Assembly: GCF_021484805.1 (NCBI RefSeq)
Contig: NZ_CP090557.1
Location: 2,926,001-2,990,000 of the forward strand
Source: Tellurirhabdus bombi
GTDB taxonomy: Bacteria; Bacteroidota; Bacteroidia; Cytophagales; Spirosomataceae
DNA: 64,000 bases
Direction: 5' to 3'
The position numbers and the translations under genes are program-made. The first letter of the stretch is position 1, and every line of letters starts with the position of its first letter. Below are positions 6,150 through 49,955 of this stretch, in pieces. The notes beneath the pieces are model-generated. The model was not told where the DNA came from. It worked only from the letters and a program-made list of their open reading frames with translations, and made no database searches.

Positions 6150-6472
6150 TCAAGCTAAGCATAGGCAACAAAATTATTGAAGTAAAGCCGGAACGGATCA
6201 TTCGGGTAAAGGGAGAAGGCAATTATGCGGTTTTCTTTCTGATTGATGGTCGAACGGTGCTTTCCGCCCGGCATCTGGGGCACTGGGAAACCAAGCTGCC
6301 GGGCTTCATCTTGGTGCACAAGGGCAATCTGGTGAATCCGGCCTTCATTACCGACATGGACACTGAGTCAGTGACCATTGATGGTACCGTTTTCCCCATA
6401 TCACGCCGTAGGCGCAAAATCGTATCCCAACTGATTATAAAAACCGACGTGGCTGATGCGATTCCTGCTTGA
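6146..6472 (+). CDS. Stand-alone LytTR-type DNA-binding protein
   Basis: This 108-residue protein is almost entirely a LytTR domain. It shows the pattern of a beta strand plus GNYxVFFLIDGR, an LGHWETKLPGFILVHKGNLVNPAFI core, and a closing IPISRRRRKIV basic segment. LytTR domains bind DNA and normally form the output half of LytR/AgrA response regulators. Here there is no receiver domain, so activity would not depend on phosphorylation. The gene overlaps both neighbours (4 bp upstream, 17 bp downstream), so it is made with the tail proteins. It may regulate phage late or host genes, or repurpose the fold; that is inference. The family call is firm, the role open. Confidence 0.8.
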   Translation: MIKLSIGNKIIEVKPERIIRVKGEGNYAVFFLIDGRTVLSARHLGHWETKLPGFILVHKGNLVNPAFITDMDTESVTIDGTVFPISRRRRKIVSQLIIKTDVADAIPA

Positions 6473-25602: not shown

Positions 25603-25658
25603 GGTCTAATTCAATACTTTGGTATAGTATTAAAAGGCTCAAATTGTAGCAAATAAAT

Positions 25659-26588
25659 ATGATAAATCCCGTAGATACGTTATTCCCAAAAAAGATAGAG
25701 GATGAGAAAACTAGGGAGGCTCTAGAGGAATACTCTAAAATCCTGCATGAGATGGTTTGCATGGGGACACACCTTCTTGAAGGTAGTTTATTAAAAACTA
25801 AAGGAGTATATGAAGAATATGTCGCCCCATTATTATTTAAAAGAATACTTGAAATTATAGACTCAATTTCAATTCTTGTAAAAGAAGGATCTATTAGATC
25901 ATGTGAGATTTTACTTCGTAGTTTTGTAGAGACTGGTTTTTCGCTCGAGTTTTTATTGGAGCAAAATGTAGATTATAGATCTAAATGCTATGTAGTTGTT
26001 GATATTTACAGCAAAATATCTAGGTTGAAAAAAGAGCTACAACAACACCCAGATACAGCAAATGCTAATTTGAATTACAAGAATAATTCATTTTTATACA
26101 ATGATACTCCAGAGCTGTTTGACAAAGAAAAATCCAAGGAATTGTTAAAGTATTACGAAGAGAAACTATTAGAGCCAGGCTATGATGAGATTAATAAAAT
26201 ATATCTTATAAAGTGCAGTAATAAGCCATACTCAGGTAAGGTAAAATGGTACTACTTAGATTCAAATGTTAACAACTTATCGCAGTTGGCAATTCAACTA
26301 AAGAAATTTGATATGTATGACCTAATATATAGACAATATTCAAGTCCAACCCATGGTGATGATATATTAAATCACGACTTACGTTTATCCGAAGGTAATA
26401 TACATGTTGCCCCATTACGAAATTATGCTACCGCTCCATATACTGCTAATTTCGTATTGACTTTGGGGATTTTGTATTTTGATCTTTTCATGGCAAGTGG
26501 GCTGTGTAGGCCCATAAACTATTATAACAGGTGGAAACAACTGTTTATACCTAATAGTATTCAAAAGCTAAGTCAAGGAGTGCGATAA
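25659..26588 (+). CDS. DUF5677-family protein (second of tandem pair)
   Basis: A 309-residue paralogue of the preceding gene. Shared landmarks: MGTHLLEG, VAPLLFKRILEIIDSI, LLRSFVETGFSLEFLLEQN (the DUF5677 core), VKWYYLDS and YSSPTHGDDI. Divergence is high, so the duplication is not recent or the copies were acquired together. Codon use is strongly AT-rich, unlike the late genes. The 56-bp gap upstream has no clear terminator, so the two may form one transcript. The function is unknown. The 193 bp after it (26589-26781) hold no supported gene. Confidence 0.73.
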   Translation: MINPVDTLFPKKIEDEKTREALEEYSKILHEMVCMGTHLLEGSLLKTKGVYEEYVAPLLFKRILEIIDSISILVKEGSIRSCEILLRSFVETGFSLEFLLEQNVDYRSKCYVVVDIYSKISRLKKELQQHPDTANANLNYKNNSFLYNDTPELFDKEKSKELLKYYEEKLLEPGYDEINKIYLIKCSNKPYSGKVKWYYLDSNVNNLSQLAIQLKKFDMYDLIYRQYSSPTHGDDILNHDLRLSEGNIHVAPLRNYATAPYTANFVLTLGILYFDLFMASGLCRPINYYNRWKQLFIPNSIQKLSQGVR

Positions 26589-26781
26589 ATTGAGATAGTA
26601 CAAATTTCCTAAGTCGTTTTCAAGATCGTTTTATCCATATTCAAATTACGAGGCTTCTGTGGTTGCTTGTAACGAGCAGACAAGGGGTAAAGGCGGTTTG
26701 CGGACGATTAAAGTATGAAGTTGGCGAACTTTACGGTTTAGTTGCTGGTATTGCAGATAAATTGTTTTTTAGAAAGTTTAA

Positions 26782-27453
26782 TTATAGGTTAAATAGTTTG
26801 AAAACACCGTTAGCTTTGCTAGCGGGATTTTTTGTTTTTGGGTCCTTAGTAATAATATCCTTTATAAGCTGATCCCGTATGTTGTTTAAATGACCCAATA
26901 ATGTTTGTAATTCTGTTGATTTGTTAGCGTCACTTCCTCTATATTGATTTTCTAGCTCATTTCGCTCTTCAAAATCATCGGGATCACAATGCGCTTTTTC
27001 AATGACACCACTTGCATGATGGAACATTTGAGTTTCAATTGAGTATGCCTTTATTACAAATTCCCTTAGGAGCTTACGTGAATCTTCGCTGAGATAAAAA
27101 GCAGCAGCGTGAACTCTATGGTTGACCTCATTAAAATTGGTATATTTTAGTAGATTATTATTTAGCGAACCCCTGTATGCGTAGCCTTCTTTATAGCTTG
27201 GAAAATTTGGCTTTAGATTATAATTGTCACGGATATAGCTATAATATTGGAAGGTAGACTCATAAAGTTTTTCAAGTTTTTCAAGTTTTCGCTCAATGTA
27301 TTTTGTGTAAAAAATATTGTCTCTACCAAGATCAGCTTTGACGTTCTCGATTGTTGTATTTAAACTTCTATTGAAAATATAATTAAAGAGGACTACGGAT
27401 ATGGCGGAAATGATTGGAGCAACTACTGGCCAGTTTATTGTTGAAAAATCCAT
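26782..27453 (-). CDS. Membrane-anchored protein of unknown function (223 aa)
   Basis: A 223-residue protein with one N-terminal transmembrane segment (VVAPIISAISVVLFNYIF, residues ~10-27), then helices with coiled-coil character (ERKLEKLEKLYESTFQYYSY). The rest is soluble and helical. It is AT-rich and minus-strand, convergent with the DUF5677 pair; its 3' end contains their terminator. No domain was recognised. A single anchor with a cytoplasmic sensor-like domain is seen in several phage exclusion proteins, but that is only a suggestion. Confidence 0.65.
   Translation of the reverse strand: MDFSTINWPVVAPIISAISVVLFNYIFNRSLNTTIENVKADLGRDNIFYTKYIERKLEKLEKLYESTFQYYSYIRDNYNLKPNFPSYKEGYAYRGSLNNNLLKYTNFNEVNHRVHAAAFYLSEDSRKLLREFVIKAYSIETQMFHHASGVIEKAHCDPDDFEERNELENQYRGSDANKSTELQTLLGHLNNIRDQLIKDIITKDPKTKNPASKANGVFKLFNL
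26807..26833 (+). terminator. Terminator closing the DUF5677 cassette
   Basis: An 8-bp stem (CCGTTAGC at 26807-26814 and GCTAGCGG at 26818-26825) with a TTT loop and a T6 tract on the plus strand. The segment 26816-26833 matches 24629-24646 at 17 of 18 positions. The hairpin lies inside the 3' end of the minus-strand gene at 26782-27453. Confidence 0.75.
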
Positions 27454-27519
27454 GTTGATAGTGATCTGCTTCTTGAGCTCATTAATAATTTAATTTTAAA
27501 CCAAAGTCAAAATAATTAA

Positions 27520-27553
27520 GTAAAAGAACCGACTGTTGAGCCGGTTCTTTTAC
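27520..27553 (-). terminator. Bidirectional hairpin terminator
   Basis: A 12-bp stem (GTAAAAGAACCG at 27520-27531, CGGTTCTTTTAC at 27542-27553) whose A/T-rich ends give a U-tract on either strand. It is placed to end transcription of the 27572-28339 minus-strand gene. Confidence 0.75.
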
Positions 27554-27571
27554 AAGTTTACTTATCAGCTT

Positions 27572-28339
27572 TTAGAAAATAATTCCAAGAGAATCTATTT
27601 CAGTAACAGATAGGTCATCCAGATACATAATATCAGCATACAATTCTCCGAGAAGAGTCAACTGCATTTGATTCGTTACAATGTATTTGATTGAAGGGAC
27701 CATAATATTATCACCCCTCATCATTAAGCCTAAATTTAACAAATCTAAGTAGTCTTGCAGTATTAGTTGTATATTGATGGGTATCTGCTGTTGGCTATAA
27801 TCTTGCTCTGAAAGATTGTAGCCATTTAACTGATTTAACTTATTCTTACGTACTAAAGCAAGAATACACAACTTTCTATAAGATAAAGTTTCAGCAGTGA
27901 TCAGTATTTGATTAGCATCTTCAGGTACTATATTTTGTTGAAATATAGTACTCTCAAATATCTTTGAAATAAACTTTATCTTTTTCTCTTCATAGGCATC
28001 CTTGCATTTCAAGAGAACTCCTTCAAACAGTTCTTCAGCTTTACTTCTTTTAAGTTCATCAGGAGCAAAAAAATTATCATTTCGAACCTGATCACCGCGG
28101 CCTAATCGATCATTTATTCCAGAAAGCACATAAGTTGCAGAGACAGCAACTCTTATTTTTTCTCTATCCGATAGAAATCTTTCCGCTACTTCTGCAACTA
28201 CTTTCGCTGTCACAACTCCAGCTGCTCCACCACCAACAGCGCCAGCTACTCCACCTAATAATCCGATTGCACCCCCTACTACTCCACCTGCGATTTCTCC
28301 TCCCTGCTTAACAAACTTTATCAGTGATTCCTTGTCCAT
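27572..28339 (-). CDS. Glycine-zipper membrane protein of unknown function
   Basis: The product is 255 aa from ATG 28339; a longer form from TTG 28378 is less likely. Residues ~10-45 are a Gly/Ala/Val-rich hydrophobic stretch with repeated GxxxG spacing (GGVVGGAIGLLGGVAGAVGG), a glycine-zipper that can insert in or permeabilise membranes. The C-terminal ~200 residues are helical and soluble, with no recognised enzyme domain. A zipper joined to a sensor-like domain is a layout found among toxins and abortive-infection effectors, but no evidence here proves that. The gene ends just before a strong terminator. Confidence 0.62.
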   Translation of the reverse strand: MDKESLIKFVKQGGEIAGGVVGGAIGLLGGVAGAVGGGAAGVVTAKVVAEVAERFLSDREKIRVAVSATYVLSGINDRLGRGDQVRNDNFFAPDELKRSKAEELFEGVLLKCKDAYEEKKIKFISKIFESTIFQQNIVPEDANQILITAETLSYRKLCILALVRKNKLNQLNGYNLSEQDYSQQQIPINIQLILQDYLDLLNLGLMMRGDNIMVPSIKYIVTNQMQLTLLGELYADIMYLDDLSVTEIDSLGIIF

Positions 28340-28395
28340 ATTTCGTATGAAATTTGTTGAATAATAATTATACGACAATTATTTGAAAGTTTTAT

Positions 28396-28623
28396 TCACA
28401 GCAATCGTAACAACAAAATCCTACTTCTCCTCAATCCGCGCCACAACTTCAGCACGTTGCGGATTTTCATTCCGATTCCACCAGAGAGCTGGCTAGAGCA
28501 AAAAGCAACAAATTCACGCTCACTTTTTCCCTGATAATGCGCTTCCATGCCAGCGAAAGCAGGTAGGAGGTAGGTAACGGACTCGTCTAAAGTGACGGGT
28601 AATTTTTGATTCGATTGATTCAT
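28396..28623 (-). CDS. DUF6794-like small protein
   Basis: A 75-residue protein. The segment LPVTLDESVTYLL (residues ~8-20) and GIGMKIRNVLKLW (~49-61) resemble the LP-TLDEAV start and G-GMWIRN-LW block of DUF6794 proteins. Those are small, Bacteroidota-enriched proteins of unknown function. The last residues (GLRRSRILLLRLL) depart from that pattern, so the 3' end may be frameshifted. It is minus-strand, 13 bp downstream of the DUF3850 gene. Confidence 0.55.
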   Translation of the reverse strand: MNQSNQKLPVTLDESVTYLLPAFAGMEAHYQGKSEREFVAFCSSQLSGGIGMKIRNVLKLWRGLRRSRILLLRLL

Positions 28624-28636
28624 GGGGAAAATAGAT

Positions 28637-28951
28637 TTATTGACTCATTAAAGTTTCGTACATCTCTTTTTGCTCATTGAAGGACAGGCTAGAAAATGTT
28701 CCTGATAAACCCAGGACACAATAGCCTTCTTCAATTCCAAATTGCCCACCGGGAAGCAGGTAGCAAACTTCCTTGATAAGCCATTCATCATCCTCGTATT
28801 GATTTTGATCTGGATTCCATTTAGCTAGTATCAAGTAATCTCCAAGTTGAAAGTTGCGGTCATTTTTACGAACCTCGAAGGGTTTCCAGCCAAGAGCTAT
28901 TTCATCGAAATATTTTGGTAAAGTCTTCAGTAAATGCGTTTTCTTAGGCAT
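28637..28951 (-). CDS. DUF3850 (ASCH/PUA-like) protein
   Basis: A 104-residue protein with the DUF3850 signature: HLLKTLPKYFDEIALGWKPFEVRKNDRNFQLGDYLIL, then a WLIKEVCYLL..GIEEGYCVLGL strand block. The ASCH/PUA-like fold binds RNA. Such genes are widespread in phages and mobile elements, and their precise role there is unknown. The motif match is strong and the length is normal for the family. It lies 8 bp from the next upstream minus-strand gene. Confidence 0.88.
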   Translation of the reverse strand: MPKKTHLLKTLPKYFDEIALGWKPFEVRKNDRNFQLGDYLILAKWNPDQNQYEDDEWLIKEVCYLLPGGQFGIEEGYCVLGLSGTFSSLSFNEQKEMYETLMSQ

Positions 28952-28959
28952 GGCTAGTA

Positions 28960-29316
28960 CTATACAAGTGTGTTTTTAGGGTTTTTTTGGACCCATGAAC
29001 TGATATAAAGTCCTGTCAGGCTGGCAAATGCGCCGAATAATTTGGGGCCAATATTGATATTCAGAATTGACGTGTAAAATGCCAGAATAAGGAAGAGTAC
29101 ATATAAAGTAAGTAAGGCCAGAAGTTTGTGTCTGTCGCTCTCGGGCCATTTCATAGCCCACCATTTATTGTCAGCCAAGAAGCTATTTTGTAGGCTCTCA
29201 ATAATTTGCTTTATATCTGCAATTGCCTGTAAATAGTTGACAGTAATACTCCAAAGCAGCACTACATGGTAGATAATGGTTATAGCTACTAAAAAGTGTT
29301 TTCTGAAATTTTTCAT
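28960..29316 (-). CDS. Small multi-pass membrane protein (118 aa)
   Basis: A 118-residue protein with three hydrophobic segments: ~8-28 (LVAITIIYHVVLLWSITVNY), ~68-84 (LLALLTLYVLFLILAFY) and ~92-108 (IGPKLFGAFASLTGLYIS). A charged loop with a WWAMKWPESDRHK patch lies between the first two. No family was recognised. It is AT-rich and in the same minus-strand accessory group as the DUF3850 gene. Such small phage membrane proteins often act in superinfection exclusion, but nothing in the sequence proves it. Confidence 0.62.
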   Translation of the reverse strand: MKNFRKHFLVAITIIYHVVLLWSITVNYLQAIADIKQIIESLQNSFLADNKWWAMKWPESDRHKLLALLTLYVLFLILAFYTSILNINIGPKLFGAFASLTGLYISSWVQKNPKNTLV

Positions 29317-30428: not shown

Positions 30429-31214
30429 CTACGCTACTTTCAAAGGCTGAGTGCGGAAGTCGGACAGGTTAAGGAAAAAGCCCCGGTTCTCGGTCATGCC
30501 GTTGCGGAATAAGGACCAAAGCAGACTACTGCCCATGTTGGCCAGCGTCGAGTTGATGAACAGGTCCTGCTTTTCCAGGGCTTCCGCCAGTGAGCAGCTG
30601 GGGGTATTGGTTGTAGCTTCCCCCTTGGCTAGCTCTTCGCCGTATAAGTCCGTGACAAAAGGTAAAGACCCGACCGGCCTGTACTTTTTGGATTTGGGTT
30701 GTTTGAGAGTCCCAACCGTAGCCAGGATGACCTGACCGGTAAACTGATCATTACCAAAATCCAGCCAGTACTTGGGGCAGTCCCGATGATATTCCCCGTA
30801 CTGCCGAACAGCTGATCTTAGCGTCTTGGCGATGTCTAAACGCGCGGAAACCGTGTCGACGCAGGAAATGGTCAGACTGGCTCCGGCTATTCGCTTGGGA
30901 GTATATTTACTAATGTTGGCTTTCCAGTTGGTGCCAAAAAACCGATTCGTGCGATTGATCAGGGCTACGGCCTTGGCCAGGCCTAACTCACTTTTGGCAA
31001 AAAGCTGACGGCCAAGGTTGGCGCCGGTGATCACATCATCATCCCATACGGTCACCTGAAAGCCGGGATGCCCCAGTTCGTACATGGATAAATTCATCCG
31101 GGCCAGGGCCGTCAGTACCTGCGAACCCGTGCCGCCAGCGCCAATTAGATTCACTGTGATGGGATTCGGCGGAGCCAGCATCGTGGCGGGCAAATAATGA
31201 ACCGGTGTTTTCAT
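30429..31214 (-). CDS. PRTRC-type ThiF-like protein
   Basis: A 261-residue protein of the ThiF/E1-like superfamily. An N-terminal nucleotide-binding loop VNLIGAGGTGSQ (G25-G30) is followed by NLGRQLF and TISCVDTVSAR blocks, the E1-like adenylation pattern. In PRTRC cassettes the ThiF protein is encoded beside the B protein, exactly as here (ATGA overlap at 31211-31214). E1-like enzymes adenylate C-termini of Ub-like proteins or carry sulfur. No clear catalytic cysteine could be fixed by eye. The substrate is unknown; the small PRTRC-C-like protein is a possible candidate. Confidence 0.85.
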   Translation of the reverse strand: MKTPVHYLPATMLAPPNPITVNLIGAGGTGSQVLTALARMNLSMYELGHPGFQVTVWDDDVITGANLGRQLFAKSELGLAKAVALINRTNRFFGTNWKANISKYTPKRIAGASLTISCVDTVSARLDIAKTLRSAVRQYGEYHRDCPKYWLDFGNDQFTGQVILATVGTLKQPKSKKYRPVGSLPFVTDLYGEELAKGEATTNTPSCSLAEALEKQDLFINSTLANMGSSLLWSLFRNGMTENRGFFLNLSDFRTQPLKVA

Positions 31215-31933
31215 ATGTCAAGCAGGGATGAGAGTTTGACGCTCGACGCAACGAGCGCGTTCAGGGGGAAAGGCTTATCGGTACTGATCAGCTCATTCCA
31301 GAGCGGCACAATCGGAATCGACAGCGGATTGGTATTATTGAGGTGCGAAAAGTAGGAGTTGAAAAAGTGCGACTGCCAGAGTTGAATGAAGTCCTCCAGC
31401 GAACAGTCAGCGGGAATGCGGGGGACGGCGGTCCCCATACAGACGAGTCCCTGCGCGCTAATGTTGAAGAAGGGGGCATTGTAAAGCTTGCTCTTCAGGG
31501 TTGGGCGTTTCTTGTCTTTCAAGGCAAACACCTCCAGCAGATTCCGGCTGGCTCTGAACAAGAGAGCGGGGGTATTAGCTTTACCGCTGGGAATACCCAG
31601 ATCTGTCTGGAAGAATAATTCCTGCTCTCCGGCGGGGAGGTACCAAATAACCTGTCCTGCCGAATACCGAATCGACAGCACCGATTCGGGCAACAAGCCG
31701 CTCGACTCCAGGTATACTTGGCGCTTTTCTTTGGTGGTGACCAGTTTTCGGGCCAGTGCCCGGCCTTCCACTTCAGTTAGCGGGTGGGCATTGATGGGCT
31801 GACCTTTGTCGGAAATGTCGTAGGATTCCACGTACACCGAATCGGTCCGGTAACTATCCTGCTTTTTGAAAAACACCAGGGCCTTAACCGGCACGTAAGT
31901 ATTTTGACTAAAGAGATGAGTGATGTTGCGCAT
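31211..31933 (-). CDS. PRTRC system protein B-like
   Basis: A 240-residue protein immediately upstream of the ThiF gene. It has the PRTRC-B pattern: an N-terminal beta domain, then PTLKSKLYNAPFFNISAQG, VCMGTAVPRIP, and a late LEDFIQLWQSHFFNSYFSH block. PRTRC-B is always found with ThiF in this cassette, but its biochemical role is not known. It overlaps the F-like ORF by 26 bp and the ThiF gene by 4 bp, indicating one operon. Confidence 0.8.
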   Translation of the reverse strand: MRNITHLFSQNTYVPVKALVFFKKQDSYRTDSVYVESYDISDKGQPINAHPLTEVEGRALARKLVTTKEKRQVYLESSGLLPESVLSIRYSAGQVIWYLPAGEQELFFQTDLGIPSGKANTPALLFRASRNLLEVFALKDKKRPTLKSKLYNAPFFNISAQGLVCMGTAVPRIPADCSLEDFIQLWQSHFFNSYFSHLNNTNPLSIPIVPLWNELISTDKPFPLNALVASSVKLSSLLDI

Positions 31934-33187
31934 CGTCGGGTTTTGTTAGGAGGTTTTCTAATGCCAGCAGATAATCGTAGAGGTCCAGGATACTTTCGAA
32001 TAATCCCTGCTCGAAGTCCACCGATAGATCGATGGTTTGCTGCGGCTCGTTAAAGAGCTGCCAGGCCTTGGGCATGTTTTGCTGAAGGTTTTCGGAGAGA
32101 TCACAATCCAGCGATTGGATGGCGTAATCGTAAATGACGCCTTGATCCTCGTAAACAAACGAGAGGTACTTGTCCAGGTCAATCATGCCCCCGCCATCTG
32201 GAGCTTCCAGTTCTTCGATAAAAGCATCCCATTTGACGCTGGGTAGAATCGAGCGATCGGGATACTCCTGATACATGCGATAAAACCGCTGGGCTACCTG
32301 CTTCAGTTGCTTATCTAGGGATGAAGACGCCGCCAGGCTCTGAATGCGTTTGCCGAAGTTTTTCAGGTGAACGGGCTTTCTAAAATGATCGAAACAGGCT
32401 TTTCCGTTGGCCATATCGGTTTTGATCATCGCCAGGTAACCCATGGCTTCATCTTCATCCATGTCGCTGCCAAATGCCGGGTCGGACTGCTCTTCCAGCC
32501 AGTCGTATTGACTGCCGATAAACGTGCCTTCATCCGTAAACCGGGGGATATCAACCACCTCGCTGAGGTAGGAGAAAATGCTATCCAGTACATCCAGATG
32601 CTGCTTATAGCCGCCTTCAATGATGGGAAGATTGTCAATCAGGGTCTTACTGAATTTTACTTTCCAGTACGTCTCCAGAGGAATGTAATACAGCGTCGGG
32701 CCAGTAGCGTATTCCCGGTAGGTAGCCAAACAGCATTCGGCAATAGGTCCGCTTATCTCCATTGCTACTAGCGTCAGATTGATGTCAGGATCGATATTGT
32801 GCAGCGCCTTTTCAGCCAAGGCCAACGATTGCTCAATGTTGCCGGGAAACGGCTTCTGGCTGGTCAGGAGTTGGTAAGGCAATTCATACAAGTCAGCCAG
32901 GTGCTTTAGTGACCGAAAAAAATGCTGTTGTACGATCCGGTGATTGGTGAAATGCCGTCCGTCGATGAACTGAATCGGCTCGAACTGGCATCTCAGAAAG
33001 GCATCGGGAGCTGGTCGACGGGCAGCGATGCCGCCGGGTTTCTGAGAACGTTTGCCGTGTCGGGTATTTCGGGCAGGCTTCCCCAAAACGAATTGATGTG
33101 CGCGTGATAAGACCATTGCTCGTGATTGATAATTCGGGTGGAAGGGGGTACGACCGTTGCCGTACCCCGTTTAGCTTTTTGCTTCAT
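31908..33187 (-). pseudogene. PRTRC protein F-like, split across two frames
   Basis: The N-terminal 64 codons (ATG 33187, MKQKAKRGTATVVPPS...) end at TGA 32993-32995. The homologous reading continues in the -1 frame (LRCQFEPIQFIDGRHFTNHR...) to 31908. Joined, the product would be about 425 aa, and its place between C and B fits PRTRC-F. The longer track in the second frame begins with an out-of-frame Arg-rich stretch, so its N-terminus is not native. The shift sits at CCT TTC TGA, where tRNA-Phe could slip to TTT, so a programmed -1 shift is possible; a 1-bp indel or sequencing error is simpler. Confidence 0.7.
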
Positions 33188-33189
33188 GA

Positions 33190-33411
33190 TTAGCCTTTGG
33201 TGCCCATGACTGTCTCGAATTTGTACTCGAGTTGATCGTTGTCGAATTTGGGTTCGGAAATCTTGGCCGTAATCAGTTCGGGATACGTGTTGGCGTAGAA
33301 GTTCAGTACAGCCTGGGGGCTCATTCCTGGATCTGGATCTGTCAGATCAAGCGTTTGGCCTTTATTGATAAATTTGAATTTGCGTTCGAGTTGGGTGGCA
33401 AGTAAGGGCAT
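33190..33411 (-). CDS. PRTRC system protein C-like
   Basis: A 73-residue protein between the E-like and F-like genes. It has a beta-rich N-terminus (RKFKFINKGQTLDLTDPDPG), then a helix MSPQAVLNFYANTYPELI and closing strands (LEYKFETVMGTKG). This is the pattern and size of PRTRC-C. Its fold may be ubiquitin-like (small beta-grasp), which would be notable beside a ThiF/E1-like gene, though it ends in GTKG, not a GG tail. Spacing: 2 bp to the F-like start and 3 bp from the E-like stop. Confidence 0.8.
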   Translation of the reverse strand: MPLLATQLERKFKFINKGQTLDLTDPDPGMSPQAVLNFYANTYPELITAKISEPKFDNDQLEYKFETVMGTKG

Positions 33412-33414
33412 GGC

Positions 33415-34038
33415 TTAAGCGTTTAAAAGTTGGGAAATGGGATTCTCCTGGTTCAGGAGCGTGATTAGCTCGGTTTTGCGTTTGGTGAGGATCTCCGCAT
33501 GTTCGGGTTCGGGGTAATCCGCCGCGTTGGGCAGTTTAGCGATGGCCTCCCGGTACTTCTTTTCGGTGGCCAATGCGTCAGACTTCTGCATGGCGGCATC
33601 ATAAGCGGCTTTTTTGGGATCGATTGCTGGTTTTTCGGGAGCTGGCTTTTCAGCAGCTGGTTTCTCTACGACCGGCTTTTCGGTTGGTTTTTCTTCCACT
33701 TTCTCCGCTGGCTTATCAGCGGGTTTAGCTTTGGTCTTATCTTTATCCATAGCCGATTGCTTTTTGGCATCATCGGTTTGCTTCAGCCAGGCTTCCATGT
33801 CCACCATCAGGCCGTTGGCCTGTTTGATGGGACCGTCGATGGTAGTGAAAAAGCCTTCATCCAATTCTTCCGGAGTGCCTCGGAGAATGAGCGGCGGGAT
33901 AGACTTTCGCGCATTATCGCCGCATTTTTCGTTATTGAGCAGTACACTGACCACTTGAGACTGCGCAGAGGTGGAGGTTACCACGATCTTCAGATCGCCA
34001 GTAAGGCCCATTTGATGGATTCGTTGAAAGAAATTCAT
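33415..34038 (-). CDS. PRTRC system protein E-like
   Basis: A 207-residue protein. Residues 1-90 carry the conserved part of PRTRC-E (MNFFQRIHQMGLTGDLKIVV, ending in FFTTIDGPIKQANGLMVDME). Residues ~105-150 are a Lys/Pro/Glu-rich linker (KPAEKVEEKPTEKPVVEKP), and the C-terminus is helical. It is the first gene of the PRTRC-like group in the operon, 16 bp downstream of the clamp homologue. The role is unknown. Confidence 0.8.
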   Translation of the reverse strand: MNFFQRIHQMGLTGDLKIVVTSTSAQSQVVSVLLNNEKCGDNARKSIPPLILRGTPEELDEGFFTTIDGPIKQANGLMVDMEAWLKQTDDAKKQSAMDKDKTKAKPADKPAEKVEEKPTEKPVVEKPAAEKPAPEKPAIDPKKAAYDAAMQKSDALATEKKYREAIAKLPNAADYPEPEHAEILTKRKTELITLLNQENPISQLLNA

Positions 34039-34054: not shown

Positions 34055-35188
34055 TTAAGCGTTGGAAATGTCTTGGGGCATGAAAAGGATTCGGCGCTTC
34101 TCTTCGTTGGATTGAAGCAAAACAGCGCGGCGGTTGGTAACGGTAATGGACTGGCGCTCGCCCTCGAAGAATTTGAGCGATGTTTCGAATTTGATGGGTT
34201 CCAAGCCGAAGGGCTTGACCTGGCTAGCCTGCTTCCGATCTTCCTGACCAGCTTCTTCGACCGTCAAACCTTCTTCAAATTGATAATCGCTAAAAGCACC
34301 TTTCAGGGTCACTTCGTCAAGGCCGGGGTAAAAACCGATGAAATCGGTCCCTTGATGAGGAATTGTTTTGATGCGACGGATCGAGGCGACTAGTTCGCGA
34401 CGGTCTACGGTATACGTTGCTCCATCGTCACCCCACAAATCTTCAAATTTAGGCCGGTCTGCTTCGACGCGTTGAATCTGAATGGCGGCTCCGGGAAACC
34501 AAAGGGTGAGCCAGCTTTCTCCCAGAGACAGTTCCAGCTTATCGTCGTAATTGGCCAGCTTCAGTACGTCTGAAAGCGCTGTTACACCCCAATAAGGCAC
34601 AATGAACTGATGCAATCCTTTCAGCTCTGAATCGTGATCAATGATTTCCTCCGCGATGAAACGACCGTCGAAGCCAATCAACCCGATGGAGGTAGGGAGT
34701 ACGTCAAACCAGATACCCGATTGAGCCGGGAAAAACTCAGGTTCGTTTTTGCAGAAGGAGAGCAATTTTCTGAGTGGTCCGGCCAGACTGGAGGCAATAG
34801 GAACCTTGGTACCATGATCCGTCTTTGGTGTCGGGTAATCCTTGCCGGCAAAGGCGGGAAAAGTAACAAAATTCCATTTGGCTCCGAGCTGGTAATGCAC
34901 CGTCAGCTTTTTGTCCGCGACTTCCAGCCGGATCGGCTGAGTGGGCAGGGTGGATAGAAAACTAGACAGGGGTTTGATCTGCGGACAGATGGACCATTCT
35001 CCTTCGACGGGTGCAACCTGAATGGTGAGCAGGCAGGGCTGCGATCCAGCGGTGGCCATGAGCATTCCCTGAATGATTTCCAGACGAACGGCGGTGTAAG
35101 CGGGAACCAGCGACTTTTCATTGACGTGAGCGGCCAGTGTGAGTAACACGTCGCGCAGACGTCCAGCATCGACAACAGTTGGATTCAT
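34055..35188 (-). CDS. DNA sliding clamp (DnaN-like) homologue
   Basis: The start at ATG 35188 removes a 32-bp overlap with the nuclease gene and gives 377 aa, close to the ~366 of bacterial DnaN. Visible beta-clamp features: LVPAYTAVRLEIIQGMLMATA near the N-terminus, LSSFLSTLPTQPIRLEVADK and FVTFPAFAGKDYP in the middle, IGLIGFDGRFIAEEII and a beta-rich third domain ending RRILFMPQD. The clamp would tether a polymerase to DNA. A phage-encoded one suggests replication partly independent of the host clamp. No polymerase gene is in view. Confidence 0.82.
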   Translation of the reverse strand: MNPTVVDAGRLRDVLLTLAAHVNEKSLVPAYTAVRLEIIQGMLMATAGSQPCLLTIQVAPVEGEWSICPQIKPLSSFLSTLPTQPIRLEVADKKLTVHYQLGAKWNFVTFPAFAGKDYPTPKTDHGTKVPIASSLAGPLRKLLSFCKNEPEFFPAQSGIWFDVLPTSIGLIGFDGRFIAEEIIDHDSELKGLHQFIVPYWGVTALSDVLKLANYDDKLELSLGESWLTLWFPGAAIQIQRVEADRPKFEDLWGDDGATYTVDRRELVASIRRIKTIPHQGTDFIGFYPGLDEVTLKGAFSDYQFEEGLTVEEAGQEDRKQASQVKPFGLEPIKFETSLKFFEGERQSITVTNRRAVLLQSNEEKRRILFMPQDISNA

Positions 35189-35201
35189 GATTGAATAGGG
35201 A

Positions 35202-35648
35202 TTATAAGTTGAGATAGTCGTTAATGGCGACAATGAATTCGTTGAGTTCGTAGCAGATGACTACCTGATAGCCTTGCTCCAGTAGTTCCTCGACTCGTTT
35301 TTTCTGCTCCGGACTGGAATAGTTCTTCTTACCGGTGGCATACTTGACTTTCATTTCGATAAAAAGTCCGTGAAAGCGTCCACGGGGCAGGGCCAGTTGC
35401 AGATCGGGAACGCCCGGCAATACGCCTTCCATTTTCAGTTTGGCCGCTACTACCTTGTTGCGGTGGCCACCGTTGGGAATCGCAAAGAGCAGGTTTTCAA
35501 GCGGTTTATACTGCGTGCGAAACCAATGGACGCAGGCGATTTGCAGGCCGGATTCGGGTTCTGCCTTCTTTTTTCGCTGCTTGGGTCCCTTCTGAGGCAC
35601 GTAGCCAAGCTGCCGGACGTGAGCCAGGTATTCTTCCCGGTCCATCAT
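35202..35648 (-). CDS. VRR-NUC domain nuclease
   Basis: A 148-residue protein of the VRR-NUC family (PD-(D/E)XK). Motifs: ESGLQIACVHWF, LFAIPNGG, GVPDLQLALPRG and HGLFIEMK, giving probable catalytic D82, E98 and K100. Stand-alone VRR-NUC proteins are common in phage early operons and are thought to process branched DNA. A basic N-terminal extension (KGPKQRKKKAEPE) may bind DNA. Its start overlaps the stop of the DUF4494 gene by 4 bp. Confidence 0.9.
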   Translation of the reverse strand: MMDREEYLAHVRQLGYVPQKGPKQRKKKAEPESGLQIACVHWFRTQYKPLENLLFAIPNGGHRNKVVAAKLKMEGVLPGVPDLQLALPRGRFHGLFIEMKVKYATGKKNYSSPEQKKRVEELLEQGYQVVICYELNEFIVAINDYLNL

Positions 35649-36188: not shown

Positions 36189-37139
36189 TTAGCGGCGGCG
36201 GCTTTTGGCTGTTTTGGGGAATTGGATCAGGTTAAACATTTGCACCATGCGGTCATAAACGCGTTCGCCGTACGCTTTTTCCAGTTGCTCAATCTCTCCG
36301 TTTGTGGTCAGGTGTGTGAGTGGCCCTCGACAGTGCCGGTAGCGATCTTCCAGAATGCGCTCCATGACGTTGAGCGTTTTTCCGTAATGCTTCCCATCCG
36401 CTTCGTTCCCGAGGTCATCAAAACAATACCCTAGTGTTTTATGGCCGTAGTGCCTGCCGGGATCATTGACAATGAGTCTGTTTGAATACCGGTCAATGAC
36501 CTCTACGCCGTCTTTTTCGAATTCACGTTCAATCTGGGTGCAGGGGATGACTAAGAACGGCTGGTAAGGATTATGGGCGAATAGCTCCATCAGAACCGTT
36601 TTGCCAACACCCCGATTGCCAAAAAGGAGCAAACCCTTGTTGAGCGAAAGCTTCGCGTTAGGCGTTCCAAGTAGGGAAGGGCCTTCTGTTTCAAAGGATT
36701 CTAAACCCATGAAATAAGCCGATAGAGCCACGTAAATGCCTGTGTTATCCTTATCGTAGGCAAATGGGTCGCGCCAGAATTCGCGCTGTGCCAATGCTTG
36801 GGCCCGTTTAGAAACTTCATCCAGCAGCTTTTCTGGGGTTTCCGGTACGTAAGTGAGCTGCGCAACTTTTGCCGCATGCTTTTCCCGCTCAATACGTGTG
36901 TTTTTTTGTTTCTGAGCCTCTTTGAGTAAAACAGGGATGCCGGTTTCAAGCGCCAGTTGCTCTTCTTCCTGGGTGAGTGTTGGCCAGGCCTCCGAAGGGT
37001 ACACCGAACCAGCGGGAATCTCGATCTCAAACCGACGGCTAGGTGTTGAATCCGTGGTTGCTCCCGAACCCGCGGCCATCGCTTGGTTGAATCCGGCTGC
37101 TAGGCCTGCGATGGGTTTCGGATTTTGTAGTTTTTCCAT
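36189..37139 (-). CDS. DnaC-like helicase loader ATPase
   Basis: A 316-residue AAA+ ATPase, started at ATG 37139 (an upstream TTG is less likely). Walker A is GNRGVGKT (residues 174-181) and Walker B ends GYCFDDLG (D241, D242). A sensor-like HLTTNGE and an arginine-finger-like YGERVYDRMVQMF block follow, the pattern of DnaC/IstB loaders. The N-terminal ~130 residues are helical and could bind a helicase. It overlaps the 3' end of the initiator gene by 101 bp in another frame. Together with the initiator this forms a lambda O/P-like pair. Confidence 0.87.
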   Translation of the reverse strand: MEKLQNPKPIAGLAAGFNQAMAAGSGATTDSTPSRRFEIEIPAGSVYPSEAWPTLTQEEEQLALETGIPVLLKEAQKQKNTRIEREKHAAKVAQLTYVPETPEKLLDEVSKRAQALAQREFWRDPFAYDKDNTGIYVALSAYFMGLESFETEGPSLLGTPNAKLSLNKGLLLFGNRGVGKTVLMELFAHNPYQPFLVIPCTQIEREFEKDGVEVIDRYSNRLIVNDPGRHYGHKTLGYCFDDLGNEADGKHYGKTLNVMERILEDRYRHCRGPLTHLTTNGEIEQLEKAYGERVYDRMVQMFNLIQFPKTAKSRRR

Positions 37140-38130
37140 TGCGGTCAATGATTTCGTCGTTAAAAGTTTTATCAATCAGGTAATTCAGCGGGTGTGGCCG
37201 GAAACGCTTGTTTGGGTTAGCGGCCACAAAGGGCGGCGTGTGCTGCATGGCCTGCGTTCGCTCCTCATCCGTCAGCTCGATCCAGTGTCTTCGGCAAACG
37301 TGCTCCCTGACTTTGGAATCGTAGGCTGTCCACCAGTCCGTGAAAGGGACGTTCACCAGGTCAGCGTTGCTTGGTATGTTTGGATCAAGTCGCTGCGGCT
37401 TTTCCAGTTTCGGCGGGGGAGGAGGTACCTGCTCTGGCGGCGGATCTTCGGTGACTGGCTCTGAATTTTCACTCGACACGGATGTCGAGTGAATGGGGGG
37501 GCGCGCGCAACTGGGGGGGCAATCGACGACGTCAAACTCGGCAGTTGGGTCGCTGATATAATTCATATAAGCCAGATCACTCGTCAGCGTTACACGCACT
37601 CTCCCTTTTAGAGAGTTTTGAAAAGAAGGTTTTAAAGAGTTTTCATTCCTTATATAGCTAGGCTCATTTTGAGCCGATGATAGGCTCATTTTGGTCCTAG
37701 TACTAGGCTCATTTTGGTCTGATGGTAGGCTCATTTTGAGCTTAGTGCTAGGCTCATTTTGGTCCGACCGTCGGCTCATTTTGGTCCTATGGCTAGGCTC
37801 ATTTTGGTCCCATACTAGGCTCATTTTGAGCCGATCAAATTCCTTTTCATCGTAGTAGGAAGCAATCACCTCGGGATGTGCACAAATGATTCGCTCATTG
37901 GCCGTACCGGTCAGGATATTGCTACGTACCAGATCCTCTTTCTCGAGTTCCACCAGCAAGCGCTTAATGGTGCTAACTGGTATTTTCAAAGCGATAGACA
38001 TCTCTGGATTTGAGTCCCGGCACAGCCCATCATTAATGGATGCACGGTAGCACACCAGCGCCAGTAACAGCCGGGCACTGGTAGTAATTCCCAAGTCAAG
38101 AATTGTCCTGTCAATCCACAATCCTTTCAT
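37039..38130 (-). CDS. Replication initiator with winged helix and embedded origin repeats
   Basis: A 363-residue protein. Residues ~1-85 are a winged-helix DNA-binding domain (ARLLLALVCYRASINDG, MSIALKIPVSTIKRLLVELEKEDLV). Residues ~100-157 are three to four copies of a 15-residue repeat (DQNEPSxRTKMSxxS type), encoded by DNA iterons described separately. A Pro-rich linker follows, then a C-terminal domain with WWTAYDSKVREHVCRRHW. Initiators such as lambda O bind iterons inside their own gene; the layout here is the same, followed by a DnaC-like loader. The function is strongly suggested; binding is untested. Confidence 0.83.
   Translation of the reverse strand: MKGLWIDRTILDLGITTSARLLLALVCYRASINDGLCRDSNPEMSIALKIPVSTIKRLLVELEKEDLVRSNILTGTANERIICAHPEVIASYYDEKEFDRLKMSLVWDQNEPSHRTKMSRRSDQNEPSTKLKMSLPSDQNEPSTRTKMSLSSAQNEPSYIRNENSLKPSFQNSLKGRVRVTLTSDLAYMNYISDPTAEFDVVDCPPSCARPPIHSTSVSSENSEPVTEDPPPEQVPPPPPKLEKPQRLDPNIPSNADLVNVPFTDWWTAYDSKVREHVCRRHWIELTDEERTQAMQHTPPFVAANPNKRFRPHPLNYLIDKTFNDEIIDRNGKTTKSETHRRPSSRIQPSDGRGFGSNHGFNT
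37618..37660. other. AT-rich stretch next to the iterons (possible unwinding element)
   Basis: About 43 bp rich in A/T (TTTTGAAAAGAAGG, TTTTAAAGAGTTTTCATTCC, TTATATAG) lie immediately beside the first iteron. In lambda-type origins an AT-rich region next to the iterons is where the duplex opens. That role is inferred from position and composition. Confidence 0.55.
37661..37832. repeat. Eight ~22.5-bp iterons (candidate replication origin)
   Basis: Eight copies of a GGCTCATTTTG core start at 37661, 37683, 37706, 37728, 37751, 37773, 37796 and 37818. Spacing alternates 22/23 bp, so the helical phase is regular. The outer copies are perfect palindromes (GGCTCATTTTGAGCC, with TTT as centre); copy 4 is nearly so, and most inner copies end in GGTC. 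The array lies within the initiator ORF and encodes its 15-residue repeats, two iterons per repeat. Confidence 0.88.
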
Positions 38131-40037: not shown

Positions 40038-40766
40038 CTATTGTAGATTTTGCTGTTTGCGGTTTTTGACCAGAGCCGTAGCCACGGAGCGGGAGGCGTG
40101 ATTGCAGGCCAGTTCACACTGCGCATTGCCGTACAAGCCCTGAGATTCAATGGCGGATGTAGCCAGCAATTCGGCCAGATTCACCGCGGCCAGTTCAACG
40201 GCATTCATGTTGTCCCGGATATTGACCTTCTCACTGAGGCCTTTCCGAAGCCGAACCACGGCGGTTGACCCACCGTACAAAGGGGTGTAGATGGCGTTGG
40301 TGCAAGCCCGAAACCCGTTGTTTTTGACGCCGTGACCGCCAAGGGTGCGGGTGAAGTTGTTACGAGTCGCTACCGCCTGCAACCGGCCTTCGATCCAGCT
40401 GGCATCTTTGCCTAGCCGCTGGTAGCGGTTGGCTTTTTTGCTCAGGTTGGCCGATTGGCGTTGCAGTCGTTTTTCACAATTCAGGAAGTATTCCCGAACC
40501 TGCTCGCCTTTCTCCGATTGAGCCATCATTGCCAGGCGCTTGGCAAAGTCCAGTGTTAGGGCATAATCGACCGATTTGTTACCGTTCGACATGATGTCGA
40601 ACCCTACCCAGTCTTCGTTTTCCCGGGCAAAGGGATTGCGAGCAATGTTCTTTTTCGACCAGCGAGCCCACTGGCTGCGGTTGAATTCGAGGAACTCATA
40701 AAGCTCCCGGGCCGAGACGACCTGCGCACCTTGCGCGTTGACGGATACGTTGACCAGATCTTTCAT
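40038..40766 (-). CDS. AntA/AntB-type antirepressor
   Basis: A 242-residue protein. Residues ~10-90 match the AntA/AntB domain: VVSARELYEFLEFNRSQWARW, NEDWVGF, and VDYALTLDFAKRLAMMAQSEKGEQVREYFLNCEKRL. Phage antirepressors of this class inactivate the CI repressor and trigger lytic growth. The C-terminal half is helical with SAIESQGLYGNAQCELACNHAS. It lies 3 bp from the upstream small gene and near the repressor switch, consistent with a role in induction. Confidence 0.85.
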   Translation of the reverse strand: MKDLVNVSVNAQGAQVVSARELYEFLEFNRSQWARWSKKNIARNPFARENEDWVGFDIMSNGNKSVDYALTLDFAKRLAMMAQSEKGEQVREYFLNCEKRLQRQSANLSKKANRYQRLGKDASWIEGRLQAVATRNNFTRTLGGHGVKNNGFRACTNAIYTPLYGGSTAVVRLRKGLSEKVNIRDNMNAVELAAVNLAELLATSAIESQGLYGNAQCELACNHASRSVATALVKNRKQQNLQ

Positions 40767-41131: not shown

Positions 41132-41812
41132 ATGAATGTTAATGCTAGTAAGATAAGGGGTAGGATGAGGGAAATGGGTCTAAGCCAAGAAGAATTGGCT
41201 GATAAGATCAGTATTAGTAGGCGTACCTTGAATACAATATTGCAAACTGGGAAAATTAGTAAGGCCGATACTCTCTCAAAAATTGCACATGTGCTACAGT
41301 TGCGAGAAGACGAGTTTTTGATCGAAGAGGGGCCAGTAGTCACTACTGGTAATATACGTTCATTTGATACTAACGTCGGTGAACACATACACGCATTACC
41401 TTTGATAAGTATTCGTGGGGCCGCATCCATTGTGGATAAAAGCATGGATGGTTTTCAATTGAAATTTATTGAAGAGACGTACCCGGTTTACCTGCCAGAA
41501 GGGTTGGGTCGACAAAAGTTTGTTGTCGTTGAGGTGGACGGTGACAGTATGGAGCCGCAAATTCGAGATCGATCAAAAGTTTTGACGCTCCCGATACCTA
41601 TGGAAGATATAAAATATGAAAGTGGGGGCGTGTATGCTATTTTTTTTGCTAATCGATTTGTCGTCAAGCGCATTAAAACGAACGACATAAACACAACTGG
41701 CTTTTTGACGCTACACAGTGACAATGAGCAATATGGCGCGATCACAATCCCAGCTGATGAAATTAGAGCAATGCTGAAAGTTGCCCATGTTGTATTTTCT
41801 GGTGTACGCTAA
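41132..41812 (+). CDS. CI-like phage repressor (HTH plus S24 peptidase)
   Basis: A 226-residue protein. Residues ~5-65 are an HTH_XRE domain (MREMGLSQEELADKISISRRTLNTIL). Residues ~125-215 are a LexA/S24 domain with GDSMEP (catalytic S139) and GGVYAIFFANRFVVKRI (probable K179). The protein should bind operators in the adjacent region, hold lysogeny, and lose activity through RecA-stimulated self-cleavage or via the antirepressor. Length is normal for this class. It is the first rightward gene of the lysogeny region. Confidence 0.92.
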   Translation: MNVNASKIRGRMREMGLSQEELADKISISRRTLNTILQTGKISKADTLSKIAHVLQLREDEFLIEEGPVVTTGNIRSFDTNVGEHIHALPLISIRGAASIVDKSMDGFQLKFIEETYPVYLPEGLGRQKFVVVEVDGDSMEPQIRDRSKVLTLPIPMEDIKYESGGVYAIFFANRFVVKRIKTNDINTTGFLTLHSDNEQYGAITIPADEIRAMLKVAHVVFSGVR

Positions 41813-46373: not shown

Positions 46374-47705
46374 TTATAATAGCGATTTAAGGTATTTCTT
46401 TTTCTTCTCATCCCCAAAGCTGCCGAGGTAGGATTCCGTTGTCTTTAGGTTGGTATGGCCCAAGGCCTGCGAAATAAAGGCAACCGGCGCTTCCGATTGC
46501 AAAAGGATTGTAGCAAAGGAGTGCCGCGCCTCGTAGGTGTTTACATCGGCCTGAATACCCACGGCTTCGGCAATCCGGTTGACATATTTATTCGTCATCT
46601 TGATCACCTGGTGAATGACCGTCTTTTGTTGCCGGGCATCCATGGCATCATTGATGAAGGGAAACACAAAATCATTCGGTGATCGGGTGGGGGTGCACCA
46701 GCGCTCAATGATGGACTCGGTTTCAGGAAACAGATCGACGGAGATCTGCGTCTGGTTGCCTTTTCGGGACCGGCGCGTTTTCTCCCGGACAAACGTAATG
46801 GTACCGGCCTGCTGATCGATGGCTTTCCAGCGCAGGCGGCAAATGTCGGCTACATTCATCCCGTTACTCAAATAAGAGAAAATCCACAAATCCCGGCCAC
46901 GCTGCTCCATTCCTTCGGCGCACGAGTAATTAATGATCTTCAGTACTTCTTCTTTGCTGAGAGCTTTCTTGGCGTTTTGACCGGCGGGAATGGTGTACCC
47001 TTTTTTGGAAAACGGGTAATCTTCCATTTTTGCCAATCCTTTTTCGATAGCTTGATTGTATAAGGTTCGCAGCGTCCGTAGGTAAATGCCCACCGTCGTC
47101 AGCGTTGCCGGTCCCGGTTTGCCACCAGGCTTGCGGGATGCTTTGCCGTACTTCAGCATCCATTTTTCGTAGGCACCAAGAAAAGCGGGTGTGATATGCC
47201 GATAGGTCAGCACTTCTTCGGAACCTAGCAGGGCTTTGCGATCGCTGGCCGAAATGCTTTTTAAAAACCGCTCCAGAGAACTGGCCGTGGTCAGGTTGCC
47301 ATCCGCCGTACTGATCCGGTCTTCTTTGTTCATCCTGGTGGCCATCTCGCGCAAAGCGGCAATCACATCAACAACGTTCGACGGCTCTTGCTGTTCTTTG
47401 TAAAAAGCCTCCAGAAAGGAATCAAGCGCAAATGGTTGTAGTTTCTCACACAGGTCTTCGGCCTTCTGTAGGTGGGGCTCCAGCCGGGCATACAGCAGCT
47501 TGATATCTTCCGCTGTCCGGGCGGATTTAGTCTGGTGATATTTATCTAACTTTTCGTAGCTTGCCGGGGAAATAATCACGCCTTCTTTGATGGGGAAGGA
47601 AAAGCGGCGCTGCTGCCTTTGAAAGGTAACGCGCATCTGAACCGACACCATTCCGTCTTTGGCAGGGCGGGTAGTAAGCTTAATGGTCGCTTGGTTGATG
47701 TTCAT
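46374..47705 (-). CDS. int: Phage tyrosine recombinase (integrase)
   Basis: A 443-residue protein: an N-terminal arm-binding domain (residues 1-90), a SAM-like core-binding domain (~110-235) and a catalytic domain. Visible active-site residues: K309 (VREKT), R394 (ARHSFATIL), H417 (LGHTNLKTTESYL) and Y426. The usual first catalytic Arg is not present: the motif reads YLSNGMNVADICRLRW, with N281 in its place; a related variant seems common in this Bacteroidota subfamily. It ends at the right prophage end, next to the tRNA-Met fragment. Confidence 0.93.
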   Translation of the reverse strand: MNINQATIKLTTRPAKDGMVSVQMRVTFQRQQRRFSFPIKEGVIISPASYEKLDKYHQTKSARTAEDIKLLYARLEPHLQKAEDLCEKLQPFALDSFLEAFYKEQQEPSNVVDVIAALREMATRMNKEDRISTADGNLTTASSLERFLKSISASDRKALLGSEEVLTYRHITPAFLGAYEKWMLKYGKASRKPGGKPGPATLTTVGIYLRTLRTLYNQAIEKGLAKMEDYPFSKKGYTIPAGQNAKKALSKEEVLKIINYSCAEGMEQRGRDLWIFSYLSNGMNVADICRLRWKAIDQQAGTITFVREKTRRSRKGNQTQISVDLFPETESIIERWCTPTRSPNDFVFPFINDAMDARQQKTVIHQVIKMTNKYVNRIAEAVGIQADVNTYEARHSFATILLQSEAPVAFISQALGHTNLKTTESYLGSFGDEKKKKYLKSLL

Positions 47706-48638: not shown

Positions 48639-49955
48639 TTAAGGCAAATTAGACTGGGTAATGGTGGCCGTGTTACCAGTACCATCTTGACGGACATTTG
48701 AGGTATTAATGTCACCTAATTGGCTAATAATGCCACTATTACTAAGGCCTAGTTGCTCTATTGTTACTGAATTGCCATCACCTGCCTGGGTAATCTGAAC
48801 CAGGCTACTTTCGGCGTTGGTAAAGAAAACTCCTTGGTATACAAAAGCAGAATTTTGATCCCCGGATTGATCAACACTAACGGTGTTGTCAGTGGATGTG
48901 CCAGTGACTCCCTGGACTATATAAGCAAGATTTTGATCCCCAGATTGATCAACGATGGTTGTGTTTCCGATAGAAATGGTGTTCAATCCCCCGCCGCTCA
49001 CTCCCCTTCCCTGGGATACTTCAGCAACGTTCCCGTTACCCGACTGATCAAAGATAGCCGTATTGCCCGTGCCAATAGCAGCGACTGCCTGATTTATAGT
49101 AGCCGTGTTTTGGTCCCCGGACTGATTAATGATAGCCGTATTATCTGCCGAAACGCCAATAATACACTGGAATAGAATGGCCGTGTTTTGATCCCCGGAT
49201 TGATCAATGATAGCCGTATTGTTCATGACATCGTCCCCAATACCAGTCGACTGGGATAAGGTAGCGCTATTATAATTGCCCGACTGATCAATATTAGCAG
49301 TGCTGTTAGATAAAATGGAAGGGCTATAAGGATTATAAGCTCCCTGGGATAGAGAAGCGCCGTTATTATCACCTGACTGATCAACACTAGCTGTGCTGTT
49401 AGTGAGACGGCCATAACTGCCCTGATTGGATTGAACATAATTCCCGCTACCCGACTGATCAATACTGGCTGTATTGCCCGTGGCAGTGCCATAATCGCCC
49501 TGGAATAGATAAGCGAAGTTTTGATCTCCAGATTGATCAATGCTGGCTGTATTGCCCGTGGCAGTGCCAAAATTGGCCTGATCGAATAGAACATAGTTCC
49601 CGCTACCCGACTGATTAATACTGGCTGTATTGTCCGTGGCATTACCATCCTGCCCTTGAGCTAGCGTGGCCGTATTGTCATCACCTAGTTGATCAATATA
49701 CGCCTGGTTGGTAGTCCCAAACTGGTATACATCGGCGGTATTGCCCTGAACCGGGTTAGCGGAAGTACCCTGATTGATGGTTGTCTCATTCTGGCTCCCC
49801 CGCTGAGTGGTGATGATTTGATTACTAGCCCCGGTCTGCGAGAGGGTAGCCCTTAGCTCAGTTCCGCTCTGATCCAGAGTAGCCGTGTTGGTCTGCCCGT
49901 AGCTAGCCGCCGATAAGGCTAAAAGGGCAGCTCCCGAAAGTAAAATTCGTTTCAT
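48639..49955 (-). CDS. Curlin-repeat protein (functional amyloid subunit-like)
   Basis: A 438-residue protein with a signal peptide (MKRILLSGAALLALSAASYGQ) and many ~20-25-residue repeats of the type NTAxIDQSGDQNxAxLxQG. This alternation of Gln, Asn, Gly and hydrophobic residues is the curlin (CsgA/CsgB) repeat, which stacks as a beta-solenoid amyloid. It is larger than E. coli CsgA (about 150 aa). Export would need a CsgG-type channel, not seen here. A surface adhesin or biofilm role is inferred from the family. Confidence 0.87.
   Translation of the reverse strand: MKRILLSGAALLALSAASYGQTNTATLDQSGTELRATLSQTGASNQIITTQRGSQNETTINQGTSANPVQGNTADVYQFGTTNQAYIDQLGDDNTATLAQGQDGNATDNTASINQSGSGNYVLFDQANFGTATGNTASIDQSGDQNFAYLFQGDYGTATGNTASIDQSGSGNYVQSNQGSYGRLTNSTASVDQSGDNNGASLSQGAYNPYSPSILSNSTANIDQSGNYNSATLSQSTGIGDDVMNNTAIIDQSGDQNTAILFQCIIGVSADNTAIINQSGDQNTATINQAVAAIGTGNTAIFDQSGNGNVAEVSQGRGVSGGGLNTISIGNTTIVDQSGDQNLAYIVQGVTGTSTDNTVSVDQSGDQNSAFVYQGVFFTNAESSLVQITQAGDGNSVTIEQLGLSNSGIISQLGDINTSNVRQDGTGNTATITQSNLP

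Follow-up and report, generated by a model that had tools for sequence, protein, structure and literature searches.

The eight iterons found inside a prophage gene of Tellurirhabdus bombi very probably form a replication origin of the lambda type, situated within the gene for its own initiator, as judged from the sequence and by analogy with characterised origins. The analysed DNA, referred to as the window, was a stretch of 64,000 nucleotides (contig NZ_CP090557.1, 2,926,001-2,990,000), and positions are given within it. The array is an unusually regular case of an origin type that is already known. Possibly new are the wide occurrence of its core and the rule that it follows, namely one core, gene-specific arms and any open frame.

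Anatomy and coding frames of the iteron array

The initiator gene was identified as an open reading frame of 363 amino acids on the minus strand (37039-38130). Within it, GGCTCATTTTG occurred as eight exact copies spanning 37661-37832, with first bases at 37661, 37683, 37706, 37728, 37751, 37773, 37796 and 37818. The spacing was 22, 23, 22, 23, 22, 23 and 22 bp, thus strictly alternating, and Tandem Repeats Finder scored the array at 191-259 for periods of 22, 45 and 90. In gene orientation, the 11-bp sequence CAAAATGAGCC was invariant in all eight copies, while the adjoining bases varied. The 11-mer had 17 copies in the 4.94-Mb genome, eight of them in the array, and the reversed 11-mer had a single copy.

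The two outermost iterons (37661-37675, encoding AQNEPS, and 37818-37832, encoding LKMS) were perfect 15-bp inverted repeats, GGCTCATTTTGAGCC, each with arms of 6 bp flanking TTT. The copy at 37728-37742 (GGCTCATTTTGAGCT, encoding LKMS) was a near-perfect palindrome with 5-bp arms. The other five were poor palindromes with only two contiguous pairs, namely those at 37683-37697 (GGCTCATTTTGGTCC, TKMS), 37706-37720 (GGCTCATTTTGGTCT, DQNEPS), and 37751-37765, 37773-37787 and 37796-37810 (all GGCTCATTTTGGTCC, encoding DQNEPS, TKMS and DQNEPS, respectively). A preliminary description of this DNA had reported eight iterons at alternating 22/23 bp, which was confirmed. It had called the outer two perfect palindromes and the inner ones imperfect; this holds except that the copy at 37728 is nearly perfect. 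Its further claim that the sites are kept in helical phase was not supported, since with 10.5 bp per turn a distance of 22.5 bp makes about 2.14 turns and the iterons are therefore not strictly in phase. That two sites per 45-bp codon repeat preserve the reading frame was borne out by the 22/23 spacing and the in-frame repeat of 15 amino acids.

The iterons were read alternately in frame 2 (KMS) and frame 0 (QNEP), which resulted in a 15-residue repeat covering residues 101-156. The half-site variants CT and AC, located just 5' of the core, were each present in both frames. The sequence CAAAATGA contains TGA and can therefore be read in just two of the three frames; this stop-codon rule, by which one of three frames is closed, accounts for both the 22/23 spacing and the KMS/QNE repeats.

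The repeat could also be a matter of the protein alone, a disordered linker grown by tandem duplication of 45 bp in DNA that has no function of its own. The 45-bp unit is in frame and its copies are 81% matching (Tandem Repeats Finder), as this explanation would have it, and a linker is probably tolerant of changes in length. However, when the array was recoded synonymously 20,000 times using the codon usage of 23 other open reading frames of the window (9,266 codons), the recoded versions contained a mean of 0.83 and at most six CAAAATGA sites, and none reached the eight of the real gene. The eight sites are not accounted for by synonymous recoding, and the synonymous positions of the array are non-random. 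Moreover, the 11-bp core is invariant next to variable bases, and in other initiators the core lies in other frames or outside genes. A functionless duplication is thus very improbable. If the array is an origin, which we consider highly probable, the linker with its KMS and QNE repeats would be mainly a by-product of the DNA sites.

The initiator and its prophage surroundings

The protein was divided into a winged helix (approximately residues 1-95), the iteron-encoded linker (101-156) and a C-terminal part. The predicted winged-helix DNA-binding domain corresponds to 37846-38130 (minus strand), with its boundary placed by inference. AlphaFold2 modelled residues 1-110 as a winged helix with a mean pLDDT of 87.3; among solved structures the model most resembled MarR-family regulators, although the scores were modest (best E=6.9e-4). 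The likely recognition helix contains STIKR.

Sequence comparison gave a weak match to the DnaD-like phrog_186 (E=0.0047). At E<=0.001 no PHROG family was matched, including the families with CAAAATG-type initiators (phrog_428, phrog_678 and related ones), and at E<=0.01 no Pfam family was matched, neither Phage_rep_O (PF04492) nor RepA_N (PF06970). Relatives of the whole initiator were absent from the viral contigs and genome contigs in a direct search. A whole-initiator search returned only partial matches, in five of 59 related genomes and in nine phage records, none of which covered 80%. A relative of the N-terminus was detected at locus L053, with 36% identity over residues 1-101, and the L053 protein itself matched O-like PHROG initiator families (best E=8.7e-7).

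Directly 3' of the last iteron in the direction of the gene begins an AT-rich stretch (37607-37656), which is a candidate unwinding element; with 76% AT it is the highest 50-bp window in the gene. The next gene downstream, which overlaps the 3' end of the initiator gene, encodes a DnaC-like helicase loader (36189-37139, minus strand) matching phrog_50 (E of about 1.7e-15 to 1.8e-15) and phrog_3277 (E=5.4e-11). The surroundings are prophage-like and include genes for an integrase (46374-47705), a virion structural protein (6456-8357), a CI-like repressor (41132-41812) and an Ant-like antirepressor (40038-40766).

Several other features were observed in the window. A PRTRC cassette encoding ThiF-like, B and E proteins (30429-34038) is located inside the prophage and adjoins the replication genes. 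The replication region also encodes a sliding-clamp-like protein (34055-35233), which matched phrog_947 (E=1.6e-17) and, weakly, Pfam DNA_pol3_beta (E=0.0018). A stretch of low GC content (0.32-0.41) at 25001-29000 separates the structural-gene side from the replication genes, and a 78-bp repeat of about three copies was found at 49410-49656, inside the open reading frame 48639-49955.

Plasmid iterons are often regulatory or serve in incompatibility. Such a role would mean that the initiator or the CI-like repressor controls transcription or copy number through the array and that the origin is elsewhere, and the repressor gene is indeed nearby. However, the array is intragenic, about 300 bp from the start of the gene, and has an AT-rich neighbour and a loader gene following it, like the lambda origin. 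A purely regulatory or incompatibility array is therefore very unlikely.

Counting the window's own, 22 of the 121 genomes of the family had a relative of the loader. At 14 of 26 other loader loci, three or more copies of a 9-mer were present in an upstream open reading frame, in some cases in a single frame, and at the remaining 12 none was found. In locus L492, CGGACAGCA occurred six times and in all three frames, and in L488, GGTAAAGAA occurred seven times. An array of CAAAATG like that of the window was found at none of the 26 loci. Other repeats are carried by L053 (at about 1310-1550), whose DNA-binding domain is the nearest to that of the initiator; it has six copies of TATAAGGA and four of AAGGAAATTCC, the latter in all three frames, so the site is not conserved together with the protein at this distance. 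Among these relatives the layout is found again, with a different site sequence. The genome of the window harbours a second DnaC-like loader (L504, C1:4313161-4313904), and the initiator-like open reading frame upstream of it is without a CAAAATG array.

Comparison with lambda and RepA_N plasmids

The preliminary description had likened the arrangement to lambda O/P, with the iterons beside AT-rich DNA and upstream of a DnaC-like loader. This was supported by the eight sites inside the 363-residue open reading frame, the adjacent AT-richest 50 bp of the gene and the phrog_50 match of the following gene (E=1.8e-15), as well as by the predicted winged-helix N-terminus and the core of lambda iteron 1. 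In lambda the iterons lie inside the initiator gene, O, and are read in several frames, both as in the window, and gene P follows O. The annotated lambda iteron 1, ATCCCTCAAAACGAGGGA, reads IPQNEG, and QNE also occurs in the repeat of the window. Its core, CTCAAAACGAG, differs by one base from that of the window, CTCAAAATGAG. Lambda iterons 2-4 (TAAAACGA, CAAATTGG and CAAAACAG) depart further from the shared core, and the four iterons are read in frames 0, 2, 2 and 1. Lambda has four iterons at 20, 24 and 23 bp, whereas the window has eight at strict 22/23. Furthermore, the initiator of the window is without a Phage_rep_O match and its loader, unlike that of lambda, is DnaC-like.

An AT-rich region adjoining the iterons, as in the window, is described for the lambda origin (PMC7466680). 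The same source describes a plasmid of a lambdoid phage in which alteration of two iterons, with the O protein unchanged, reduced transformation to below detection (PMC7466680).

For plasmid pSK41, the winged-helix N-terminus of the initiator is described as binding four Rep boxes that are central in its own rep gene, and the linker encoded by the Rep boxes as dispensable (PMC5703833). Of the characterised iterons of the RepA_N group, most are described as inverted repeats that converge on a poly-A tract (PMC7145576). In the window the inverted arms were 6 bp long in two of the eight iterons and 5 bp in one, and the other five had only two contiguous pairs. The window also differs from RepA_N plasmids such as pSK41 in being a prophage and in having no RepA_N match.

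The CAAAATG core in other initiator genes

The core of the sites in the window was also found in phage initiators of the phrog_428, phrog_678 and related families. In these it lies predominantly on the coding strand and in frames 0 and 2, with spacing inside the searched range of 19-26 bp and with gene-specific arms. A shared CAAAATG iteron core was not reported earlier in the literature searched, which covered titles and abstracts with partial coverage.

When viral contigs were searched for TCATTTTG occurring three times at gaps of 11-18, at least 120 stretches were detected, against 23 for the reversed motif. In a set of 149 loci, 123 three-copy clusters were found, of which 98 were in an open reading frame on the CAAAATGA strand, five in a longer opposite one and 20 in none. 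The frames of CAAAATGA in the 149 loci were 0 (255) and 2 (148). An open reading frame over at least two copies was present at 120 of the 149 loci, and these were reduced to 66 representatives by clustering at 50% identity. Among these and the window, 44 of 67 matched phrog_428 ('replication initiation protein') and 32 of 67 matched phrog_678 ('O-like'). With redundant loci included and a search range of 19-26 bp, the spacing peaked at 21-24 bp (85, 61, 77 and 57 cases). For the 63 of 66 representatives that had the required flanks, the AT fraction was 0.652 after the array vs 0.624 before it, and it was higher in 37 of 63 genes, which is a weak trend (p=0.04).

Among the open reading frames of the reversed-motif control, one of the 10 scanned (of 18) encoded an initiator. 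This match (L182, 8378-9124) carries repeats of its own, AGTAAAAC, which indicates that other iteron classes exist.

The three-copy pattern was present in three of 395 genomes in a survey of the phylum (reversed control, one of 395) and in two of 200 genomes in a survey of the family (reversed control, none of 200). Besides the genome of the window, the matches in the phylum (L200 and L201) were not recognisable as initiators by eye, and the second match in the family (L192) was an initiator. A scan of genome contigs detected at least 115 stretches; among those listed, 45 were in an open reading frame on the same strand, 49 in a longer opposite one and 21 in non-coding DNA. About 17 of the 45 same-strand frames listed begin like initiators, by eye, and the hosts of the initiator-like matches include Staphylococcus equorum, Providencia, Helicobacter equorum and a Bacteroidales assembly. 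In genome contigs the three-copy pattern by itself is unspecific, as 70 of the 115 listed stretches were outside a same-strand frame or in a longer opposite one. CAAAATG was absent from the initiators of TP901-1, Tuc2009 and 80alpha; the records of Tuc2009 and 80alpha place an origin in the initiator gene.

Two further sets were picked by similarity of the DNA-binding domain, using the best 80 loci each, and comprised 37 and 63 non-redundant genes; these are not a neutral sample, because most of the queries were motif carriers. CAAAATG was counted 78 times in the first set vs 36.3 (sd 4.3, max 46) in 60 synonymous shuffles, and 45 times in the second vs 24.9 (sd 4.2, max 35), also in 60 shuffles. 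In a stricter count, six genes also located on motif-selected contigs were removed; the remaining 34 and 60 genes had 66 copies vs 32.5 (max 42) and 34 vs 20.2 (max 27) in 100 shuffles. QNE in frame 0 is equally encoded by the synonymous variant CAAAACGA, which was found three times in the first set vs 12.5 in shuffles and once in the second vs 2.7. However, the control GTAAAAC, the reversed 7-mer, also exceeded the shuffles in the first set (6 vs 1.8, max 5; stricter count 5 vs 1.9, max 5), so the enrichment of CAAAATG may be partly unspecific. In the second domain-selected set the control showed no rise above shuffles. CAAAATG ranked ninth among the enriched 7-mers of the first set and was outside the top 15 in the second. 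In the initiator genes of L319-L398, the enrichment over synonymous shuffles was greater for 7-mers such as AGAGACT (37 vs 3.9) and AGACTAC than for CAAAATG.

Arms and frames were counted in 59 of the 66 representatives, omitting L018, L061, L062, L064, L066, L101 and L148, which were unlike initiators or short. Over the three sets, CAAAATGA was found 210, 0 and 86 times in frames 0, 1 and 2, and CAAAATG before C, G or T 10, 17 and 17 times. The zero for CAAAATGA in frame 1 is forced by the TGA stop, since the open reading frames were taken from stop to stop, and is not evidence. What is informative in these counts is the use of all the open frames.

Non-coding arrays were inspected in 13 of 50 cases, the pool consisting of 29 from the 149-locus set and 21 from the genome-contig scan. 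Seven of the 13 were located 13-111 bp 3' of a short open reading frame (L063, L080, L081, L087, L132, L137 and L147), and all seven of these frames matched replication-initiation, O-like or DnaD-like families, those of L063, L081 and L087 being similar to one another. In three of the seven (L063, L080 and L137) the sites were oriented against the gene, so the orientation of the site is not strict. At L013, an initiator was found about 0.9 kb from the non-coding array. The use of several frames and the presence of non-coding arrays point to selection on the DNA. The preliminary description had raised the case of a protein repeat that is kept while its DNA repeat is lost at synonymous sites; we saw the opposite, as CAAAATG in the domain-selected initiators exceeded its count in synonymous shuffles by a factor of 1.7 to 2.1 and arrays were found in non-coding DNA beside initiator-like genes as well.

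In the first domain-selected set (23 genes), the two arms of a site paired at bases 1-4 outside CAAAATG with frequencies of 0.74, 0.80, 0.70 and 0.59, vs 0.42, 0.25, 0.42 and 0.30 for arms taken from different genes. The motif-selected set gave 0.60, 0.75, 0.61 and 0.56 at positions 2-5 vs 0.27, 0.42, 0.31 and 0.27 between genes, with no difference at position 1 (0.73 vs 0.73). In the second domain-selected set (10 genes) complementarity of the arms was not clear. Thus, in two of the three sets the arms were complementary within genes and gene-specific. This bears on the idea that the sites are bound by some protein of the host or a different one of the phage, and not by the encoded initiator. 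One core shared by initiators of several families would suit such a factor, but gene-specific arms that are complementary within genes fit a co-evolving phage-encoded dimer better than a single conserved factor, and binding by such another protein is extremely unlikely.

In the aligned domain, the 33 initiators with clustered CAAAATG had T at position 67 in 27 cases and Q in one, vs 17 and 34, respectively, of the 67 initiators without clustered CAAAATG. Position 67 was dropped as a candidate specificity code; once kinship was considered, four independent pairs were left on supported branches.

Proposed mechanism and significance

Binding by the initiator of the window, opening, loading and their direction are what we infer for the array. 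The N-terminal winged helix would bind as a dimer to each iteron, with the inverted arms contacted by the recognition helices and the central A-run recognised by bending and wing contacts. The eight adjacent sites, about two turns apart, could then assemble a nucleoprotein complex that opens the neighbouring AT-rich stretch, and the DnaC-like loader encoded by the next gene would put the replicative helicase on the opened stretch.

More broadly, and only tentatively, a large share of winged-helix phage initiators of different families and bacterial phyla may use one iteron class, with a fixed CAAAATG centre and gene-specific complementary arms, commonly 21-24 bp apart. A shared feature of the winged helix would read the centre, specificity would be encoded by the arms and could change with them, the frame would be irrelevant except for stops, and the lambda iterons would be a variant. 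This is weakened by samples seeded with motif carriers, by the rise of the control 7-mer in one of them and by the divergence of lambda iterons 2-4.

The array of the window is a clean case in which a single stretch of DNA is both a putative origin and code. If the shared CAAAATG core holds, sequence could suffice to locate the origin in many uncharacterised phages and to predict origin position and specificity, and the sequence of the arms set against the recognition helix would constitute a testable specificity code.
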